Part shown: one piece after another, positions 11,270-22,255 of the stretch
Numbering within the stretch: position 1 is the stretch's first letter
How the letters are laid out: every line of letters begins with the position of its first letter
Origin: a virus
Virus record (IMG/VR): IMGVR_UViG_3300044825_000270
Location: 1 to 22,298 of that record
Strand: one strand, 5' to 3'
DNA length: 22,298 nt
The notes under the pieces: model-generated
Told to the model about the DNA's origin: nothing
The model's input: only the letters and a program-made list of their open reading frames with translations
Databases searched by the model: none
Program-made: the position numbers and the translations under genes

Positions 11270-14200
11270 TTAAGGGCGGGCGGCTTGGGGTTTGGTTTCA
11301 CCTGTGATGCTTAAAAACTTTTGAGCAATCAATACCTGTTGATCGTCAATGCGTTCCAGTATTTTGTCTTTCTGTTCTTGCGACAGGTTTGGCAGGCCGA
11401 TGACACGCCTGCGCACCGTAGCTAATTCACCTAGCTTCTGTTGCACCGCACCTGAAAGCGAAGAAGCGATCAGTTTGTTGCGGTAGGTATCCAAGAACTC
11501 AAGCGCCTCTTTCTTACGCCCTTCCTCTACCAGCCGGTTGAACGTACCCTTGGCCTGCTGAATCTCCAACATGCGCTCGTATGCCGCATCGAGCGTGCCT
11601 CTACCTTCCACCGGCTGGAACAGACCGCCAATAAACGGTTGCTGATGCAGTTTTTTACTTGGCTGTTCCACGGCGCTGGCTTCGGTATTTAGTATCGGGT
11701 TAGCCAACGATATCAGCGCAATCCCTAAACCACCTGTGTAACCGCGAATCAAATGGTCCCAACCAATCGGCGTAATACCTGCATCGCCCGTCGCACCGCC
11801 CAACACTTTCGACAACTCCGTTGTCGTTGAACGGAAGCGTTCGGTCGGCAGCATATTTGTAATCTCACGTTGAGATTCGATGTCACCGCCAAAGAACGAC
11901 TTGCCCAGATACAACTCAGTCACCGGCTTGACCGCCTGTGGCAGCGCAAACGGGTTGGATAGCATCATCAGCTTACCCATGCCCTTGGTGATGTCCTGTG
12001 ACTTCTCGTCTGCGGCACCCATATTGAACACGGCTTCCGGCAAAGACTTAAACAGGTAACCCAATTCAAACGGGATCGGCACCTTCAACGGCTGGTCCAT
12101 GCCGGGGATGTAGACGAACCAGTTGGCCAGACGCTCTTCTGGCTTGGCGCGTTTGTATGCCTCGTCATCCTGCATCATGGCAGCGTAGGCCAAGGTTGCA
12201 GCGCCCATCAACAACCCACGGGCAATCAACTTCTCCCGAATCTTTAGCTGTTCGCTGTACGGCATCTTGTTGGTAAACGCCCGATACAGCACATCCAGAC
12301 CTTGAACCTGCGCGTTGAAGAACGGGATCAGAGTGTTCAAGTAGTACATTGTGGGTGACAAACCGCGTCGCCCGAAGTTCATCGACTCCAGTGTACGCAG
12401 CAGCGCCTGCTGCTCAGACAGCCCTTTGGCTATCGAATCTTCGTACACCACCGCACGAGTCGCGGCATCGCCCTGCATTGCAAAGGCATCGGCCTTCGCC
12501 ATCAACTTTTCCCAGCCAGACTTACCTGCACTGATATCCCGCAAGAATCGTTTGAAATCCTCTGGACCCCCAGTAAACACGTTACTGGAGATAGCGCCGG
12601 TCTCCATCAGCTTGCGCTCAGTTTCGCTGCGCCCGGCCACCATACTAGATAGCTGCTTGAACGAATTAAAGATCGGCACACCGTCGGTGCCAGTAGTCAT
12701 CCAAGCAGTCAACGGGTCACGGATGGCCTGACGAATTGCATACGCTGGGTTGCGCGTAACGAACTTGCGTAGGATGTCAGCAGGCACGCCCATCATCTTG
12801 ACGGCCATCGGCAGCGAAGTCTTGATACCTTCCATGCCCTTGACAATCAGGTCTGCTGGGATGCCATACAGATCGGTGTCGATGATGGCGTAGTACGACT
12901 CGCCCTTGACCTTGAAGCGCACGGTGTCGCGGTTGGCAGGGCCTTCGCCCTTGGCCAACGTCTTGGCAAAGCCAATCTTGTGCAGCAGGAACGACGTATC
13001 TTTTACGCGCTGGTTGCGCAGTCCCATGTCAATCAACATGAAGGCGTTCTGCACAGAGCTAACCGACAGTGGCAGTATCTGGGTGTTGTCGCCAACAAGC
13101 TGTTGTAGCTGCGGCTCGTCCTTGATGTTACCAATACGGATCGGTACTTCCTTGTCGGTGAACAACTCCACATCACCGCTACCTTTGTTGACACGGTAGT
13201 ACGGTACGTAGTCAATAGACTTCAGCTTGTCAGCTTGATCTTTGGTCATCGCGCCGGTCTGCACAACAAAGTCAATCAAGCCGTCGTTAAACTTCTTGTA
13301 CTCAACGGATGCGGCTTCAAACGCATCGCGCATCTGCGGATTGCTCTTCAACTGCGCCATCACAGCGTCGTACTCTGCCTTGGCTTTGGCAGGGTTACCC
13401 ACCCACAACTTCTCCCAACCCACCTGCTTGGCACGCTTACCTGCTTGATACACCGTAAACATACGGTCAAGCTCTGTGCTGTTCTTAATTCCCGCGCCTT
13501 CCAAAATCTCGAATACACGCATCAAGTTAGCACCAGCTTCGCTGCGGTAAATGTACTCCTTACCTTCGGGCGTTTCACGCGACACCACACGGCTAAGTGG
13601 GCCGTTAGTCAGCGCCTGTTGTGCATACTGGCTGCGGTTCTCGCCAAAGCGTAGGTAGTACTCGCCGTTGCTGGCTTCAAGTTGCGATATTTTCTTAGCG
13701 TCCATGCCCTTCTTGAACGCCTCGGAGATGGCAGCAAACTTATCAACAAACTGTACGCGCCCAGCGATGCCGAGGAAGTTAGCTTTCAGTGTGTCAATCG
13801 TGCGCGGCTCATCTGCCACAATGGACGACGGCGTTGCCCCCGGCTGTACGTAGGACTTAAACGAGAACACACCGGGCTTCTCTTCCTTAACCCCAATGTT
13901 TTTCGGCATAGCCTTGGCAGTTTCTTTTACTTCTGCACGAGCCACACTGGTCGGCACCATCAACGCTTCAACAGATGCTATTGATGCTTCCATCATGTTC
14001 TTGACGTTCTTCACGCCAATCATCTGCAAAATGTAACTGACAAAACTACGAAACGCGTTGCCTAATGTCCACGGCTTACTGCGCAGTTGGTTCTGTAGCT
14101 TTTCGTTCGACAGTGCTTCAGCAGCAAACTCCGAAATGTCGCTCTTGGCGTTTACACTGGTGATCGTTGGGTCTTTTTGAATCGCCTTAAACAGACGTTC

Positions 14201-17200
14201 CAGTTCGCGGTACGCAGCCTGCTGTGTAGGCGACAACTGTGTGATGTCTTCCTTGGCCATCTGAATAACGCGCTCGGCCGCAGAGTGCACACCCTCGTGC
14301 AGCAACGTCTCTTGCGTCAAACCTAACCGACTAATATCAATCTGGCCTGCGGTGGCCATACCCAGAACTTCTTCTCCGGTTGGGGGGTAGTACACACGGT
14401 CACTGACTGTGACATTGGTCTCATCTACATACACCTCAAGCGCCGCAGCCACTGCTCGATTAATAGGCGTATTGGTGTCGTCTTCAACGATAGAAGCAAA
14501 CGCGGTTTTAAGATCGTTGTTCTTCAGCGCCTCAACTTCTTTTTCGCTTAAATCTTTGCTTTCAATTTCAGATCCACGTTGTAGCTTGCCGGTTTCTTTG
14601 AGCCGTTTAGCAGCCGCAGCTTGGAATGCCGACAGCATGGCGCTGGGTGACTTGGGTTCTGCTTTTGGTTTGAACGGCACTTCAGGCTTCTCGCCTGCTT
14701 GCGACGGCAGCAGCCCCGGCTCCCGTTTTTCTTGAATCGTACGTGTGCGCGCACGGCTCTCTTCCGAAGCCGTTTGCATTCTGCTCAGTTTAGCTATCTT
14801 GCGGGTCGCTTGCGTAGTGCGAAGCGATGCCGTGTTTTCAAGATTAAAGTTTGTTAAATTAGTTTGAGCAACTGCAAGTCGTTTTTCAACCGCTTCTTTT
14901 TGTTTTGGGGTGAGTGTTTTATCTTTGGCTTTTGTCTCCAAAGCTTTAACAGCGGCTTCCAACTCGGCTTTCTTTTCCTGTATAGGAGCCGTAACTGTTT
15001 CTTTTAGTTCTGCGGTTGCTTGTATTTTACGGCTACGGTACTCTGGGCTGGCTTTGCCAAGCTCTTCAGCTTTAGCATCCATCGCCTTGGTTGCGGCTTT
15101 CTCAAAGTTCTTCCACGCGTCGAGTTTTTGCTTGGCACCTTTGGTGTATTCATTAACGCGGTTCTTATAGTCCTCAGACGTTTCGCCAACCCGCGCTTTT
15201 AATTTAGCCAGTTCAGCTTTAGCGTCGGCCTCGTACTTCTCGTACGCTGCTTTACGCTTGGCAATTTCTTTTTCTTTAGGTGCGGCAAACTTTTTGTACT
15301 CGTCCGTCTCGCGGCCAATCTCCATAGCAACACGCTTGGGGCTGGCGGTTATGCCTTTACCTTCGATGATCTTCTTGTACCGCTTGTACTGCGGCGACAT
15401 CTTGACCGACAGATTCTTCTCAACAAACTCCCGCACCTGCGGGCTTTCTGGCCCGTAGTTTTCTACGCGCTCTTCAAACTCTTTTAGCAAGTCTTTGCGT
15501 GTTTTTTCGGCTTGCTCTGCCAGCATCTTTTCAGCACTGCCAACAGGCCCCACCTCTTTAACGGTAAACATGCTGCGATACAGCGCAAAGATTTCATCCC
15601 GCGCCGGTACCATGACGTTTTCAATTAGGTGGTTGTACTCTTTGACTTTGGCGTTGCGGCTCTTGCTGGCACCCTGCCGTGTAGCGGGTGGAAGGTCTTT
15701 GTTCTTGAGGGTCTCTGTTAGCCCTGCAATCTCGCGGCCTAGCTTTTCTACTTTGTCTTTGACTGACAGTTTTGCCCGACCTACAGGCTTGTCGATCATA
15801 TCCATCAAGTAGCTAATGCGGTCTGCAATCCGCTGATACTCTTCTTCAGTTACTGTGCGCTCCGAAATCCGCCCCGGCAAACCAAGCCGCTGGCCCAAAG
15901 TCTGAACCAACTTATCTTTTTCTGACATGCCGCGCTGCGCACGTTCACCTGCTTTCTTTTCCGCACGCTCCCGCGTTGCTTCTGGCAGTATTTTGCGTTC
16001 TTTCTTTAGCTGGTTAATGATCGCCATAATTGCTTTGGGATCATTGTTTAGCGTAGCGGTGCGAAGCTGATTGGCATAATCAAAAATGTCAACCGGCTGT
16101 TTTGTCTGTTCAACAGGCGCAGCATTTAGCGCGTCAATCTCACCGTATATTTTGTTTAGCTGGGTGCTCTTGTCGTAGTAGTCTTTTAAAAACTTTCTGT
16201 TGACGTTACGCGGAGCCATGCGCTCAAGCTCTTGCTCAAGCGCAGTAATTTGACGACGCACACTGCTTTTAGCGGAGTCTATGTTGTCATAGAACCCCGG
16301 CTGCGCCGATGCCTCAGACAGTCTGCCTTCTTGTTCTTGCAGGTCACGGTACTTCTGACGCGCTTCGTTCAGCCGAGTTAAAACACTTTGACGCTCGGTA
16401 TCTGTGGCGCGTTTTGGGCCACCAATCTCTACATTTTCTGAACTAACACGCGGACTCATTGCCACAATTTGTTTGAGCAAATCATCGGCCTGCGCTTGCT
16501 TCTGCGCAATCTGATCTTCAGTTTCTTTCGACAATGCCGTAGGTTGTACCGGCCCTTGCGTCATTCTTTCAATATCTGCCGCAGTAAACGTACCGGTTAC
16601 TTTTCCGGTTGCTTTACCTTCTTCACGCGTTTCAAACTTCAAAACTTCTTCGGCTTTGGGCTGCTGCTCTTCAGTATCAAACAGCGGTATCTGTTCGTCT
16701 TTAGGTGTTTCTTTCACGCGTAACACATCGCGCTTACGCTGGAACTCTTCCTCGGCTGCGCTGCGCTCGGCCTGCAACTTAGCAAGGCGCTTCTCGGCTT
16801 TGTCCACGGCATCGTAGTCGCGCACATCGGCGCGGCTCATCTCCCGTATGGTGTTTTCTTCTTTGGCAATCTTATTGTCCAGCGTCTTTAGCTGCTTGTT
16901 ATACGCAGCCTCGGCTTCTTCTGCCGACTCCAGCACACCACCTGCTTCCGTGATCTGGGTAGCCAGCGCATTCATCGCCGCTTCGTTGTCGCGGTATTCC
17001 TGCATCAAAGACCGAGCGGTCTCGTTGTCGCCCTCTTGACGGGCTTTCTCAATCCGGTCAGCCAACGGGTCCAGTGACGACTTTAACGTGTCGTAGCTGT
17101 CCATCATTTTGAAGATGTCTGCTTTTTCGGGCGCTGCAAAAATCGCAGGTGCTGCGGGGATCGGGGTGATGTCGCTAAAACGACGTTCAGCCGTAGGCGC

Positions 17201-18298
17201 ACCGGGCACCGGCGTAATGTCCTTAAAGCGCCGTTCTTCGATGGGGATTTCTGCTGCTACTTGTGGAGCTTCTGTGGGGGCAGCCGTAATAGGTGCGGCT
17301 GTTGTGGTTGTTGTAGCTGTTGTTGGGGCTGCTTGTTGCGCTGCCAGTTCGTCTCGCGCTGCACCTTTTTCAGAAAGCCGACCCGCAGCACCCAATGGTC
17401 CCAACAAGCTGACACGGTAGGCTGTCTCGCCGTATTCGGCAAACGCTTCAGGGCCAGTTAGTGGCAATCCCGCCTGCTTGCGTTCCAGCATTTGCTGGAA
17501 TATTTCGGTAGGGACTTCAACCGCGACACCGGTTGCCGTACCTTTAGTTAGTGTTGCCAGCAGTCTTTCATTTGCTAACTTCTCAGCTTGAGCAGCACTA
17601 CGTCCAAAAAATGCTTTAACGGGGATGCCGGTTAGCTTACTAACAAGCTGTCCACCAAGAGGTACTAACGTACTTGCAAGTTCTGCGGCGGTGCTGGGAG
17701 CGGTTGTTTTGAGTAACTCACCTCGATCAATACTGACAGGTTCTCCCCGCGCTGCTTGTTCTTGCGCACGACGCTCAGACTGCGAACCTGCGGTACTCAA
17801 GAATAACGGAACAGACGCAGCGCCCAACCCACCAACCACAGCCCCGGCAGGTCCTAACGGGGCACCAGCCATTGCGCCTAGTCTACCGCTGCCAATTGCC
17901 GCACCCATCTGCGGAATTTGTTCTGCTATTGCAAGAGGCATTTGTCGTGCGGCTTCTTTTCCGGCAGCTAAAAGCCCCTTCTCTTCGTAAACTTTCTTTA
18001 GACGATCCAGACCAATCTGATCTTCATATCGGCGACTAATGTCTTCCTGTCGTGCCAAGCCTGCTCTGGCAGCTTCCGCAGCTTCTTCGGGCGTGCCAGC
18101 AAACACTCCAACACCTGTACGCCCCGAAGAAAGCTGTGACTCCAGCCCTCGCTGAAACGCTGCGCCAATCCCACGTTTGCGTGGTTGGGCTTCCTCCATC
18201 AACCGTCTAATCTCATCCGCAAGAATTTGAGCAGCGGCGGTATCTCCCGCACGATCTGCGGCAATCATCGCTTGTTCAATTTGCTGGATTGTCGGCAT
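11270..18298 (-). CDS. Giant polyvalent/ejection protein with HExxH zincin motif and LPD38-like region
   Basis: A 2342-residue protein, the largest in the window. The N-terminus has an AADRAGDTAAAQILADEIRRL block (residues 13-33). Residues 119-170 are Gly/Ala-rich hydrophobic segments, possibly membrane-inserting. A Thr/Ala linker (319-350) leads to two copies of a 16-residue ERRFxDITPxPxAP repeat (355-386). About 395-1290 is highly charged and largely coiled coil. LLHEGVHSA gives H1334, E1335 and H1338, a zincin motif, with EFAAEA (E1390/E1394) as a possible third ligand. From about 1840 to 2150 (NPAYAIRQAIRDP at 1850, NFGRRGLSP at 1974) it resembles LPD38 of large polyvalent proteins. These families are injected with phage DNA. 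By position it corresponds to T7 gp16. No good Shine-Dalgarno site precedes the ATG. Confidence 0.82.
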   Translation of the reverse strand: MPTIQQIEQAMIAADRAGDTAAAQILADEIRRLMEEAQPRKRGIGAAFQRGLESQLSSGRTGVGVFAGTPEEAAEAARAGLARQEDISRRYEDQIGLDRLKKVYEEKGLLAAGKEAARQMPLAIAEQIPQMGAAIGSGRLGAMAGAPLGPAGAVVGGLGAASVPLFLSTAGSQSERRAQEQAARGEPVSIDRGELLKTTAPSTAAELASTLVPLGGQLVSKLTGIPVKAFFGRSAAQAEKLANERLLATLTKGTATGVAVEVPTEIFQQMLERKQAGLPLTGPEAFAEYGETAYRVSLLGPLGAAGRLSEKGAARDELAAQQAAPTTATTTTTAAPITAAPTEAPQVAAEIPIEERRFKDITPVPGAPTAERRFSDITPIPAAPAIFAAPEKADIFKMMDSYDTLKSSLDPLADRIEKARQEGDNETARSLMQEYRDNEAAMNALATQITEAGGVLESAEEAEAAYNKQLKTLDNKIAKEENTIREMSRADVRDYDAVDKAEKRLAKLQAERSAAEEEFQRKRDVLRVKETPKDEQIPLFDTEEQQPKAEEVLKFETREEGKATGKVTGTFTAADIERMTQGPVQPTALSKETEDQIAQKQAQADDLLKQIVAMSPRVSSENVEIGGPKRATDTERQSVLTRLNEARQKYRDLQEQEGRLSEASAQPGFYDNIDSAKSSVRRQITALEQELERMAPRNVNRKFLKDYYDKSTQLNKIYGEIDALNAAPVEQTKQPVDIFDYANQLRTATLNNDPKAIMAIINQLKKERKILPEATRERAEKKAGERAQRGMSEKDKLVQTLGQRLGLPGRISERTVTEEEYQRIADRISYLMDMIDKPVGRAKLSVKDKVEKLGREIAGLTETLKNKDLPPATRQGASKSRNAKVKEYNHLIENVMVPARDEIFALYRSMFTVKEVGPVGSAEKMLAEQAEKTRKDLLKEFEERVENYGPESPQVREFVEKNLSVKMSPQYKRYKKIIEGKGITASPKRVAMEIGRETDEYKKFAAPKEKEIAKRKAAYEKYEADAKAELAKLKARVGETSEDYKNRVNEYTKGAKQKLDAWKNFEKAATKAMDAKAEELGKASPEYRSRKIQATAELKETVTAPIQEKKAELEAAVKALETKAKDKTLTPKQKEAVEKRLAVAQTNLTNFNLENTASLRTTQATRKIAKLSRMQTASEESRARTRTIQEKREPGLLPSQAGEKPEVPFKPKAEPKSPSAMLSAFQAAAAKRLKETGKLQRGSEIESKDLSEKEVEALKNNDLKTAFASIVEDDTNTPINRAVAAALEVYVDETNVTVSDRVYYPPTGEEVLGMATAGQIDISRLGLTQETLLHEGVHSAAERVIQMAKEDITQLSPTQQAAYRELERLFKAIQKDPTITSVNAKSDISEFAAEALSNEKLQNQLRSKPWTLGNAFRSFVSYILQMIGVKNVKNMMEASIASVEALMVPTSVARAEVKETAKAMPKNIGVKEEKPGVFSFKSYVQPGATPSSIVADEPRTIDTLKANFLGIAGRVQFVDKFAAISEAFKKGMDAKKISQLEASNGEYYLRFGENRSQYAQQALTNGPLSRVVSRETPEGKEYIYRSEAGANLMRVFEILEGAGIKNSTELDRMFTVYQAGKRAKQVGWEKLWVGNPAKAKAEYDAVMAQLKSNPQMRDAFEAASVEYKKFNDGLIDFVVQTGAMTKDQADKLKSIDYVPYYRVNKGSGDVELFTDKEVPIRIGNIKDEPQLQQLVGDNTQILPLSVSSVQNAFMLIDMGLRNQRVKDTSFLLHKIGFAKTLAKGEGPANRDTVRFKVKGESYYAIIDTDLYGIPADLIVKGMEGIKTSLPMAVKMMGVPADILRKFVTRNPAYAIRQAIRDPLTAWMTTGTDGVPIFNSFKQLSSMVAGRSETERKLMETGAISSNVFTGGPEDFKRFLRDISAGKSGWEKLMAKADAFAMQGDAATRAVVYEDSIAKGLSEQQALLRTLESMNFGRRGLSPTMYYLNTLIPFFNAQVQGLDVLYRAFTNKMPYSEQLKIREKLIARGLLMGAATLAYAAMMQDDEAYKRAKPEERLANWFVYIPGMDQPLKVPIPFELGYLFKSLPEAVFNMGAADEKSQDITKGMGKLMMLSNPFALPQAVKPVTELYLGKSFFGGDIESQREITNMLPTERFRSTTTELSKVLGGATGDAGITPIGWDHLIRGYTGGLGIALISLANPILNTEASAVEQPSKKLHQQPFIGGLFQPVEGRGTLDAAYERMLEIQQAKGTFNRLVEEGRKKEALEFLDTYRNKLIASSLSGAVQQKLGELATVRRRVIGLPNLSQEQKDKILERIDDQQVLIAQKFLSITGETKPQAARP
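17141..17236 (-). repeat. Two-copy 16-residue repeat within the giant protein
   Basis: Residues 355-386 read ERRFKDITPVPGAPTA then ERRFSDITPIPAAPAI, a direct tandem repeat. The DNA copies have diverged, so the protein sequence is what is kept. It follows a Thr/Ala/Pro-rich linker (17253-17344) and resembles a peptide-binding or spacer element between the membrane-like head and the coiled-coil body. Confidence 0.6.
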
Positions 18299-18304
18299 TT
18301 TTAT

Positions 18305-20752
18305 TTATTGCTTCGGAAAGTACTTATTGAAGATTGACTGCCCTTGAGGAGTAAGCCCGCCTGACGGTTCCATCAAGCCCTGATCAAACAGTGATGCAAA
18401 CGGGTTGCGCAGTCTTGCGGCTTCCAGCGCCGTCTCTCCACGCGAAGCGTACTTGGCCTCGTAAAGACGGCGTACAGCTTCATCGTAACGAATGCCGGGA
18501 TTTTCTTTCAGGATTTGTGCAATCTGGCGTTCTTCCGCTTCTGGGCGTCCGTACAGTTCCGTCAGTTTGCCATAGTACCCCTTCATTACGTCTTTATATT
18601 CTTTTTCTTGTTGACGCAGTTCGCGTTCACGACGCGCTCCCAACGTGGCAATACCCGAACGACCCACGTTAGAGAGCAATTGCGACAGAGCACCGCCGGG
18701 TTGTCCGGGTTGCGCCATCATCATGTTTAGGCCCATCGTCAGAATGTCTTCGTTGGAGAAGCCTTCAGCCTTGGGTGCCACTTGTTGTGCCAGTTCTTTA
18801 GCGGCTTCAAGTTTGTCGGGCGTAGGTTGCGTTTGTCCTTGGCCGTAGTCCGAACCGTACGAAAACGGCTGCATATATTTATCAGGAACTTCTTCAGCAG
18901 ACGGTTCTGGCACTGGCGCTTTAACACCTGCTCCTGCGCCAATGACGCCGGGAGCAAGAATGTTTCTACGCGCTTCAGCTTGTCTGCGGGCAGTTGCAAA
19001 TACTGCGTCGCGTGTATCCAGCGCACCTTCTCTTTCCGCCAACCCTCTGGCTTCTGCGGCTTTCTTTTCAGCGGCTGCGGCAGCTTCTTGGGCTTTACGC
19101 ACATCTGCTGACTGTTCACGACGACGGCGCTCCAACAGCGCTTGTACACCCATCTGCTGTGCTTCTGGGCTGGGCGTAAATTCTTTAGGTCTTTGCAGTC
19201 CTTCACGTAACCGTGCCGCCTTCTCTGCATCTCCCGCAGCTTCTGCTGCTTGTGCAGCACGTTCTTGCGCTTCCGCAAAACGCTGTCGAATATCTAAAAC
19301 AGGGCTTGGTTTACCTGCTGGTTTTGGCCCTTCAAGTCGTGGTGCTTTAGCAGTCTCAACGGCTTGTGCTGCTCTTGCTGCTTCGGCTTCTGCCAGTTCT
19401 GCGGCAGTAATTGCTTTGCCTGCTTTGGGTCTGGCGCTTGCGGTGCCTACGCCGGGAATAAACGGCGGGATTTTAAAATCCTCAAACGCCCTTTGCATTT
19501 CAGCCAAAGACTCTTTACCGTATTCTGAGCGCGGGGCAAACGTCGTCGCACCAAAACCCTCTTCTGCTGTTGTCGGAGTTCCTGCTAATGTGCGGCCTGC
19601 GGCATACAGCGTGCCTGTTAGCGGAGAAATTGCGCCCGTAAGTGCAGACAGTCCTGCTTCCGGCGCTCCTGCCAGTTCGCGTCCACGTTTTGTTAGCCAA
19701 GACGGTTGTTCTTTTTCTCTTGCCTTTTCTTCCGCACGAAGCCGCTCTGGTGTCGGCACACTAGTATCCGTATACAACGCAGCATCGCTATACGGTGCGG
19801 ACACTGTGGGTTTTACTTCAGCAGGTCTTGGCACAACATCTGCGGCTGCGGCAGAACTAAACGGCAACATATCAAATATGCGCCTAGATAAGTCAGGCTG
19901 TCTTGCTTGTGTAGCTTTTGCAATCTGCGTTGATGGCATCAACTTAACCGGCGCTTGCTCTCTTTCTACCATGCGCGTAGGGGACGGCGTAGGTGTTTTT
20001 AACATGGCTTCGGCTTGAGGTTTAAACCGCGCTTTCTGCCCTGTAGCCTCACCAATAGTGCTGCCCGGAATACTTGCCCAGATGTTTGATGCTTTTTTCT
20101 TGGCAGTATCAAAGTCACCTTTAACCACCGCTTGTAAAGCGCCTCTGTCTTTTAGCAAGCCAATTGCCGCACGCTTTTGATTTTCGGGGGAGAAGTCGGT
20201 CAGTCCTAGCTTCTTTTTCTGTTCATCCCATGTTTTGCTAAGAAGCTGGTACATACCCGCAGCGGTGCTCTTATCGCCGCGTTTGTTGAATTTAACGGCT
20301 TTGCGTGGATGATCTTCAAGGCTATCAAATCTTCTGTAACCCACCAGATGGTTTGCCTGCGGGCTACCTTCGTACGCATTAATGTACGCCAAGAATTTTT
20401 CTACGTTGGGATTGCCAATATACTTGTCTGGATCAAAGACGTCCTTGCCTTTAGCGTACCCAGCAATACCGCCATCCGCCATCGTTGCCAGACTTGTCTC
20501 AGGCAACACACCAATGCCTTGTTCTTCCGGCAACTGCATCGACGCAATGTTCTGATCCGCAATGGTTGGCTTTTGTCCTGCTTGTGCAGCTTGCTGACCT
20601 GCTGCGGCTAGGCGATTTTGTTGACGGCGTTTGGCTTCGGCTGACGCTAGTGGCAGGATATATGGATCGTCTTTATGTAGCTCTGCATAATGCGCCAACT
20701 GCGCATCCGACATCATGGACAGCCGAGAAGTTATCTGCTGAACATTAAACAT
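18305..20752 (-). CDS. Virion-associated protein with GH104 (lambda R-like) lytic transglycosylase
   Basis: An 815-residue protein. Residues 119-250 match the lambda endolysin R / glycoside hydrolase 104 family: FLAYINAYEGS (catalytic E128), GYRRFDSLEDHPRK, STAAGMYQLLSKTWDEQKKKLGL, DFSPENQKRAA, KDRGAL and ASNIWASIPGSTIG align block for block with lambda R. This domain cleaves peptidoglycan between MurNAc and GlcNAc, forming anhydro-MurNAc. The remaining 560 residues are Ala/Glu/Lys-rich and largely coiled coil or disordered, unlike an endolysin. Before the domain lies ATMADGGIAGYAKG (90-103). Its place between a Gln-rich protein and the giant protein suggests an internal virion protein that opens the cell wall during DNA entry. 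The start is the ATG at 20752; a TTG at 20758 is less likely. Confidence 0.88.
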   Translation of the reverse strand: MFNVQQITSRLSMMSDAQLAHYAELHKDDPYILPLASAEAKRRQQNRLAAAGQQAAQAGQKPTIADQNIASMQLPEEQGIGVLPETSLATMADGGIAGYAKGKDVFDPDKYIGNPNVEKFLAYINAYEGSPQANHLVGYRRFDSLEDHPRKAVKFNKRGDKSTAAGMYQLLSKTWDEQKKKLGLTDFSPENQKRAAIGLLKDRGALQAVVKGDFDTAKKKASNIWASIPGSTIGEATGQKARFKPQAEAMLKTPTPSPTRMVEREQAPVKLMPSTQIAKATQARQPDLSRRIFDMLPFSSAAAADVVPRPAEVKPTVSAPYSDAALYTDTSVPTPERLRAEEKAREKEQPSWLTKRGRELAGAPEAGLSALTGAISPLTGTLYAAGRTLAGTPTTAEEGFGATTFAPRSEYGKESLAEMQRAFEDFKIPPFIPGVGTASARPKAGKAITAAELAEAEAARAAQAVETAKAPRLEGPKPAGKPSPVLDIRQRFAEAQERAAQAAEAAGDAEKAARLREGLQRPKEFTPSPEAQQMGVQALLERRRREQSADVRKAQEAAAAAEKKAAEARGLAEREGALDTRDAVFATARRQAEARRNILAPGVIGAGAGVKAPVPEPSAEEVPDKYMQPFSYGSDYGQGQTQPTPDKLEAAKELAQQVAPKAEGFSNEDILTMGLNMMMAQPGQPGGALSQLLSNVGRSGIATLGARRERELRQQEKEYKDVMKGYYGKLTELYGRPEAEERQIAQILKENPGIRYDEAVRRLYEAKYASRGETALEAARLRNPFASLFDQGLMEPSGGLTPQGQSIFNKYFPKQ

Positions 20753-20764
20753 AATCAACCTCTC
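20750..20764 (-). promoter_or_regulatory. Ribosome-binding site fixing the start at 20752
   Basis: On the minus strand GAGAGG lies six bases before the ATG at 20752. The alternative TTG two codons upstream overlaps the preceding TGA stop and sits too close to the site. The stop of the preceding gene lies between the two, so ribosomes can re-initiate. Confidence 0.5.
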
Positions 20765-21816
20765 TTGATGTCATGTAGTAGCAACTCTGCCAGACCTGCT
20801 GGACGGTTTGCAATATCTTCAGTACTACCGCCTTCTTTACCCCGGTTTAAGTTAATTAACGGATTCTGCCCACCAAACAGAGCGTAACCAGTCAGACCTA
20901 AACCGCCAATCTGAGAAAGCATCGACGGCGGAGCTTGATACATTGTTTGTGCTTGTTGAGACAGAGGTAAGCCGCGCAGCATGTCGGACATAAACGATAG
21001 TTGCTGATACGGATACTGCCGCTGATTCTGGAAGTCTTGATACGCTTGCGACAGTCGTTGTTGTTCCAACGCGCGTTGCTGCTCTCCGGCGGACAACTGC
21101 CCTTGGATAATATCTTTCTGCTGTCCAAACTGTGCTTGGCCTAATTGCCCCAGTGTGTTAGCCGCTTGCAGGCCAGTTGCGGCTCCGCGCAAACCAAGAT
21201 CAGCACCGAACTGCTGCGCCTGACGAGCTTGCTCAAACGCGGTCTGCATACCACGACCATAGATGTCAGACTGAAGCTGGCCTAAGTTACGCTGACGTTC
21301 TGCTTCCATAATCCCAAAGCGCGACCCACCAAACGCACCGGCGCGGGCGGCTTGCCCTGCCATTTGCTGACCTTCAATAGATGAACGTCGTGCAGCTTCT
21401 CGCATCTGTGGCTCAAGTGCCAACTGCGTATACGGCGACATGTACGCCCGCATAGCCCCCGGTGATGTGGCTTGTTGTGCGTATTGCTGACCTGCACCAA
21501 GACTTTGTAACCCTGCAATACCGCCCATTTGTGTAGCGGTGCCAAGTTGTTGCGCTGGGGTGAGATTCGCTACACCTTGAAACGCTTGTTGTTGAAGTGG
21601 GGTGAAACCAGCAAGGCGTTCCCCGCCATAGGCTTGATAAGGCGTACTCGTCAGTGCCTCGGTTTTACCCAGCATGCGTTCGACATACGGCCTCGCGTAC
21701 GCAGGAACTTCTGTCGTTGCCATTTGTTGTTGCGTGGGTTGCGGCGCTGGCTCGTCTCCGCCAAGGCTAAACGTAAACCAGCGGGGGGAGAAAAAGAATT
21801 TTAGAACTTCAAGCAT
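20755..21816 (-). CDS. Gln/Ala-rich putative internal virion (ejection) protein
   Basis: A 353-residue protein rich in Gln, Ala and Gly, with many QQ and AGQ stretches and a long probable helix from about residue 135 to 270. The conserved-looking part is YARPYVERMLGKTEAL (40-55) and YGGERLAGFTPLQQQAFQG (63-81), seen in proteins located just before ejection proteins in many environmental podovirus-like genomes, as I recall. It has GGSRFGIMEAE (163-173) and a short hydrophobic tail LSQIGGLGLTGYALFGG (around 306-322) that could touch a membrane. Its place and size class are those of T7 gp14, so a core or ejection role is inferred. AAGGAG lies seven bases before the ATG. It overlaps the previous gene by 8 bases, and its stop falls 2 bases before the next ATG. 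Confidence 0.7.
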   Translation of the reverse strand: MLEVLKFFFSPRWFTFSLGGDEPAPQPTQQQMATTEVPAYARPYVERMLGKTEALTSTPYQAYGGERLAGFTPLQQQAFQGVANLTPAQQLGTATQMGGIAGLQSLGAGQQYAQQATSPGAMRAYMSPYTQLALEPQMREAARRSSIEGQQMAGQAARAGAFGGSRFGIMEAERQRNLGQLQSDIYGRGMQTAFEQARQAQQFGADLGLRGAATGLQAANTLGQLGQAQFGQQKDIIQGQLSAGEQQRALEQQRLSQAYQDFQNQRQYPYQQLSFMSDMLRGLPLSQQAQTMYQAPPSMLSQIGGLGLTGYALFGGQNPLINLNRGKEGGSTEDIANRPAGLAELLLHDIKRG

Positions 21817-22255
21817 TTATATGCTCCTTGCGGTAATCATCAAACCGCTCAATAACTAAAGCCTTCCAAATTTCAGGCAGATATTCCGCAGCCTTCTCTG
21901 GCCCTACACAAACATGTACGGCGTAAGCAATAATGTTTCCAGCGGCATAACGTAATCCGTGCGCTATCTCTATTCCGTGCGCGTCTTTGTTTTTTTCGTA
22001 GTAATTTGCGGTTTTGTACGCAGACACCACCGTTATCCACAAAGGCATGACATCACGTTGAATAAGTTGATAAAACGGATTCATTGGTAAATACACAAGA
22101 CAAATCATAAACGCATTATTTATCTTGGCTTCTGCAACATCTTTGTCTTTGTCAACTAAGTCGTCCCACGTATGTGCCAAATCAATTAGCATGTCAAACA
22201 AATTTATGGCATCTTGATTGCCATCAAACCAATCTGGGTTTGCTTGTGTTTTCAT
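21809..22255 (-). CDS. Helical phage protein with conserved DDLVDKD motif, unknown function
   Basis: A 148-residue protein, almost entirely helical in appearance, with no signal peptide. It opens with NPDWFDGNQDAINLFDML (residues 6-23) followed by HTWDDLVDKDKD (28-39). Middle segments are hydrophobic (NAFMICLVYLPMNPFYQL), but they look like buried helices rather than membrane spans. From memory, proteins with NPDWF and HxWDDLxDxDK blocks recur among structural genes of uncultured podovirus-like phages and have no assigned role. The DDxxD pattern resembles the metal-binding motif of isoprenoid synthases, though the second such motif is not obvious. The ATG overlaps the upstream stop (ATGA), so coupling is likely. 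The Shine-Dalgarno candidate (GAGAAG) is about 11 bases away. Confidence 0.72.
   Translation of the reverse strand: MKTQANPDWFDGNQDAINLFDMLIDLAHTWDDLVDKDKDVAEAKINNAFMICLVYLPMNPFYQLIQRDVMPLWITVVSAYKTANYYEKNKDAHGIEIAHGLRYAAGNIIAYAVHVCVGPEKAAEYLPEIWKALVIERFDDYRKEHINA

Follow-up and report, generated by a model that had tools for sequence, protein, structure and literature searches.

Why a giant protein encoded at the end of an ejection gene cluster should carry a metallopeptidase motif, and what such a peptidase would cut, are the questions raised by a 2342-residue ORF in a 22.3 kb viral contig (IMG/VR record IMGVR_UViG_3300044825_000270, whose 22,298 nucleotides are called here the window). Replication proteins are encoded in the + strand half of the contig and include, by Pfam and the ORF list, a DNA polymerase of family A together with an SNF2 helicase and a DUF927 protein. 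In the − strand half, a compact cluster encodes proteins of 148, 353, 817, and 2342 aa, whose genes overlap or are separated by a 6-nt gap. The ORF at 11270..18298 (−) does encode 2342 aa, as the original prediction had it, and is the largest and last gene of the 353-817-2342 series, all on one strand. This order matches phiKMV gp35-36-37, PhiM1, and N4 gp52-51-50. The 353-aa protein (20755..21816, −) is a DNA ejection protein (phrog_4287, E = 7e-21), and the 817-aa protein in the gp15/OEP position (18305..20758, −) matches an endolysin family (phrog_90, 6.6e-31) through an exchangeable peptidoglycan-hydrolase domain at about residues 113–272. The 148-aa protein (21809..22255, −; phrog_21390) is a conserved member of the same cluster.

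A close relative, locus L016, encodes the cluster in identical order, including the 148-aa protein, downstream of tail-fibre and virion structural genes. The hydrolase domain of its gp15-position gene (L016:7577-9994) is of the SLT type (PF01464), whereas that of the window is of the endolysin type, and the flanks on both sides of the hydrolase part are about 70% identical between the two genes. Recombination within the ejection cluster is common. A terminator scan between the convergent genes found none, and bacterial genomes searched for related prophages yielded three weak loci only, so that we assigned no host. A second small metallopeptidase may be encoded elsewhere in the window, where a 108-aa protein (window:3102-3428) contains HELVH and has a SprT-like match that stays below threshold (E = 0.12).

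The 2342-aa protein was compared with those of 79 related IMG/VR loci, and the resulting HSP map delineates conserved N- and C-terminal modules flanking a variable middle. The N-terminal module (residues 35–318; 17345..18196, −) has a mean column identity of 58% and 31 invariant columns in an alignment of 27 rows; compared with the PDB, it gave only a weak tape-measure match (E = 0.005). Where membrane-like N-terminal segments had been predicted, we found by Kyte-Doolittle analysis one Gly/Ala-rich hydrophobic stretch (residues 140–172; 17783..17881, −), which lies inside the N-terminal module and is conserved in relatives, but its 19-residue maximum of 1.5 is borderline for a transmembrane helix. 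It is possibly a membrane-active segment. The middle (residues 390–1245; 14564..17131, −) is variable, charged, and helix-rich according to the HSP map, hydropathy, and a heptad test. The predicted coiled coil of about 900 residues was overstated: the region of about 390–1250 is indeed charged and helix-rich, but strong heptad periodicity, as measured by a home-made test rather than a standard coiled-coil predictor, is confined to about residues 428–530. Pfam scans of the variable middles of 43 relatives detected FtsK-gamma in one member and otherwise sub-cut-off noise.

The C-terminal module (residues 1487–2342; 11273..13840, −) has a mean column identity of 49% across 62 aligned rows. An LPD38-like region had been proposed to start at residue 1840; the region is real, but the conserved module to which it belongs begins near residue 1487, about 350 residues earlier. 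LPD38 itself (PF18857) was matched over the full length of the Pfam model at residues 2045–2223 (11630..12166, −), with E = 3.2e-29 and a score of 102.8 bits (cut-off, 27). We assigned no fold-based function to the C-terminal module, because its structural model was of middling confidence (mean pLDDT 68) and had no counterpart among PDB folds. Homologs of the module are found in annotated phages, including PTXU04 and Vibrio, Bacillus, and Pelagibacter phages. A conserved hydrophobic helix (residues 2024–2042; window:12173-12229; hydropathy 1.5), which lies directly before LPD38 and leads into MMQDDEAYK, may contact the membrane. The conserved linker ahead of the C-terminal module was inspected as a possible cleavage site and was too variable for one to be proposed. 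The proteins of L002, L003, L007, L008, L011, L012, L019, and L063 contain an insert of about 700–800 residues between the zincin and the C-terminal module, with a GTxWCTG...FYxYF segment and no Pfam match; the window protein is without this insert.

Between the middle and the C-terminal module is a zincin-like metallopeptidase domain (residues 1249–1449; 13952..14554, −), recognized by AlphaFold2 (AF2) and profile matches. The HEGVH motif is located as predicted at residues 1334–1338 (14285..14299, −, read from nt 14299 to 14285). A five-letter motif can arise at random, and HEGVH might thus be an accident in a structural protein. By composition, however, only 0.0014 motifs of the HExxH type were expected and 4 of 5000 shuffled sequences contained one; moreover, H1334, E1335, and H1338 are invariant across 35 aligned sequences, and the domain is homologous to zincin-bearing proteins, so that chance is already contradicted and its probability is negligible. 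Also invariant in the 35 sequences are E1390 and F1391, so that the five invariant residues include all four that a zincin should have, and E1390 (14129..14131, −), in SEFAAE, is the candidate for the third zinc ligand that the original prediction had thought possible.

The AF2 model of 283 residues has a mean pLDDT of about 95 in the zincin core. H1334, E1335, and H1338 share one helix (1329–1354), so the clustering of these residues holds at the level of secondary structure only, and E1390 is found in a separate, later helix (1388–1397). The elements in model numbering are H74-86, E91-95, E105-107, E109-111, E115-119, H125-150, and H184-193, an order of helix, strands, HExxH helix, and Glu helix that fits the MPTase core as described in PMC5512222. 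Against solved structures, the zincin profile matched 9sfn (“Internal virion protein”; E = 3e-13), 8vb2 (“Tetrameric ejection protein gp48”; E = 1e-8), and 23sg gp10 (E = 5e-7). It also matched residues 2175–2384 of the N4 virion RNA polymerase (vRNAP) with 26.3 bits (at most 5.0 for shuffled sequences, which were scored with a combined profile), and the matched region includes HELVH2228 and a later NEF. A viral fold library (BFVD) gave 16 matches below 1e-3, including a virion RNA polymerase and a phiKMV-type internal core protein. A PDB fold search with the zincin model returned nothing at E below 0.8, and no Pfam or NCBIfam zincin family reached its own cut-off on the domain. We consider that the domain almost certainly has a zincin fold and that it is probably catalytically active.

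Zincin motifs are present in all 56 complete sequences, the window included: 32 have HExxH, 23 have HExxxH, and one has HELGH. The idea that relatives without HExxH are zincin-free was rejected, since HExxxH is present in them instead. Sequences of the HExxxH type show an H, E, and H of their own that never vary and, further on, an E that hardly varies, and the two types align by profile comparison (probability 87%, E = 4e-6). The distance from the motif to the reference point at which the C-terminal module starts is 155–197 residues in 42 of the 56 and 155–233 in 44; in the remaining 12, the motif is found further upstream owing to inserts. When mapped onto a tree of C-terminal modules, zincin type changes nine times, and seven of these changes are forced by well-supported branches, although this is a quick tree and the counts may shift with more sequences. 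Loci L026 and L027, for instance, have near-identical C-terminal modules and different zincins. No loss of the zincin was seen among the 56 complete sequences, and at least seven replacements of type without loss suggest that it is the peptidase chemistry that is needed. Additional features were observed in a few relatives: an ART-like segment (WHGS/T...), recognized by motif only, downstream of the HExxxH motif in L026, L048, and L058, and HExxH together with HExxxH in the same protein in L066 and L070, possibly swap intermediates or tandem zincins.

This pattern bears on a nonproteolytic role, in which the zincin fold would be structural or regulatory, serving as a packing or autoinhibition domain. 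A precedent is the N4 vRNAP, in which the polymerase is bound and inhibited by the C-terminal part, HExxH subdomain included (PMC12633501). Such a role is nevertheless quite unlikely for the 2342-aa protein: the predicted metal-binding and catalytic residues are all invariant in the 35 sequences, and the replacement type brings its own complete H, E, and H, which structure would not demand.

The original prediction suggested that the protein may be a virion-delivered anti-host enzyme, its ejected zincin cleaving a host protein, for example one of defence or of the envelope. Polyvalent proteins are proposed as injected conflict effectors, some of their MPTases targeting host proteins (PMC5512222), and the frequent exchange of zincin type and the ART-like segment added nearby in three relatives are consistent with such a weapon. 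However, the peptidase is never lost and is mostly fixed beside the delivery module, unlike dispensable host-specific cargo, and the neighboring peptidoglycan-hydrolase gene also swaps analogues while its substrate is unchanged. Since swapping occurs in a hydrolase gene with a constant substrate too, it does not by itself point to an arms race. We therefore consider the host-directed effector rather unlikely as a complete account; an anti-host enzyme is possible but unproven, and is no more likely than processing of the ejected proteins.

Placement of the protein in the gp16 position is well supported by the profile matches of its zincin to phiKMV-type, PhiM1, and N4 proteins and by the identical gene order, and we conclude that it very probably serves a short-tailed phage as its terminal ejection protein (T7 gp16 position), of the polyvalent type. 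The homology to proven ejection proteins (9sfn, 8vb2, 23sg, and N4 gp50) is confined to the zincin. By analogy with the N4, phiKMV, and PhiM1 proteins and with JC1 gp69, an LPD38 protein described below, we infer that the 2342-aa protein is packaged in the capsid and would be driven into the cell before the DNA. The N-terminal module may assist entry into or passage through the membrane, the C-terminal module with LPD38 may provide a constant body with a structural or packaging function, and the intervening zincin would be an active zinc peptidase working during or just after entry. In the role that we prefer, the zincin would cut one or more of the ejected proteins themselves, leading to release of cargo or disassembly of a transient conduit. 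That the zincin acts during or just after entry, preferably on ejected proteins, is the best full explanation and one in which we have moderate confidence. Processing is favored over a host-specific weapon because the zincin is constantly present beside the delivery module. If the enzyme is active, we infer a substrate among the ejection proteins, itself included, with slightly better than even chances, and a host substrate has chances just short of even.

Cleavage could instead take place in the head before release, the zincin trimming the giant protein or its partners and lying idle afterwards. Phage P1 DdrB, which bears an MPTase, is processed prior to packaging, but the N4 vRNAP and the conjugative ArdC/TraC1 proteins, with similar domains, travel unprocessed (PMC5512222 for all of these), and the literature covered assigns no capsid protease role to the zincins of phiKMV- or N4-type proteins. 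Such a maturation protease is highly unlikely. The unprocessed packaging of N4 vRNAP also counts against the self-processing that we prefer, and no proteolytic role for the N4 zincin was found in PMC12633501.

As a giant ejection protein, the 2342-aa protein is of a kind already known, and what is most interesting is that one peptidase is common to three ejection systems and persists despite exchange. A conserved peptidase within a terminal ejection protein offers a direct, mutable handle on how giant ejection proteins traverse a narrow tail, act in the envelope, and are dismantled.

Among polyvalent proteins, those of the phage type described by Iyer et al. in 2017 combine a zincin MPTase with LPD38 and are encoded near virion genes, and both HEXXH and HEXXXH variants of the MPTase are described (PMC5512222). 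The window protein likewise joins a conflict-type enzyme domain to an LPD, and its gene lies among virion genes. A link to phiKMV/PhiM1-type ejection proteins or a repeated swap of zincins at one position was not found in the parts of that paper examined. Escherichia phage PTXU04 gp25 (2197 aa) contains a homolog of the C-terminal module (E = 1e-78), LPD38, and a motif of the HExxxH type, and its gene is downstream of head-closure and tail genes; it differs in zincin type and is only distantly identical (about 25%). Burkholderia phage JC1 gp69, an LPD38 protein of a podovirus, was detected in virions by mass spectrometry (PMC9144972). This DarB-like protein of 4515 aa also has LPD38 near its C terminus but, unlike the window protein, contains LT, methylase-, and helicase-like parts, and the likeness is through LPD38, not through alignment with the 2342-aa protein.

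N4 gp50 (Schitoviridae) is, like the window gene product, encoded by the giant last gene of an ejection cluster, and consists of an N-terminal region, a central part, a homologous zincin (C1), and a mostly alpha-helical C-terminal body. The difference is in the middle, where the N4 protein carries an RNA polymerase; Pfam, PHROGs, and NCBIfam gave no match to a T7-like RNA polymerase domain in the 2342-aa protein, and homology of its N- or C-terminal module to the N4 protein was sought and not found.

In its zincin, the protein also resembles phiKMV gp37 and PhiM1 gp48, gp16-type ejection proteins of the Autographiviridae (phrog_342; PDB 9sfn and 8vb2). Each is encoded at the end of an ejection cluster of three genes, after a gene whose product carries a lysozyme-like domain, and each has a homologous zincin in which HExxH is followed later by a conserved E; they differ in being about 1260–1340 aa long and in having no LPD38 C-terminal module by profile search. 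At the matching place, HEAVH423 is found in the phiKMV protein (1337 aa, the chain length of 9sfn) and HEAAH385 in that of PhiM1 (1263 aa, as in the 8vb2 chain). Of 12 phiKMV-type relatives sampled, 8 (among them phiKMV and PhiM1) have HExxH with the later conserved E; the other four are without the domain, so the zincin is not essential for ejection in general. Residues 268–528 of the PhiM1 terminal protein have been named an endolysin/exotransglycosidase-like domain (PMC11440229), and the phiKMV gp37 record is annotated with an “endolysin domain.” The PhiM1 stretch that aligned to our zincin (381–517) falls within 268–528, and because the domain has HExxH homology, the endolysin label is doubtful and probably wrong; we take the domain in both phages to be a putative zincin. 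Tentatively, and with somewhat less than an even chance of being right throughout, we propose that one peptidase family occurs in the terminal ejection proteins of N4-type phages, phiKMV/PhiM1-type phages, and the uncultured LPD38 lineage; that in this lineage the peptidase is required, being swapped between HExxH and HExxxH forms without ever disappearing, since its task is to cleave the ejected machinery while the DNA is delivered or afterwards; and that the phiKMV/PhiM1 “endolysin” would be the same peptidase rather than a peptidoglycan enzyme. The zincin link suggests a re-reading of the endolysin-like domain in solved podophage structures, which is testable in standard phages.
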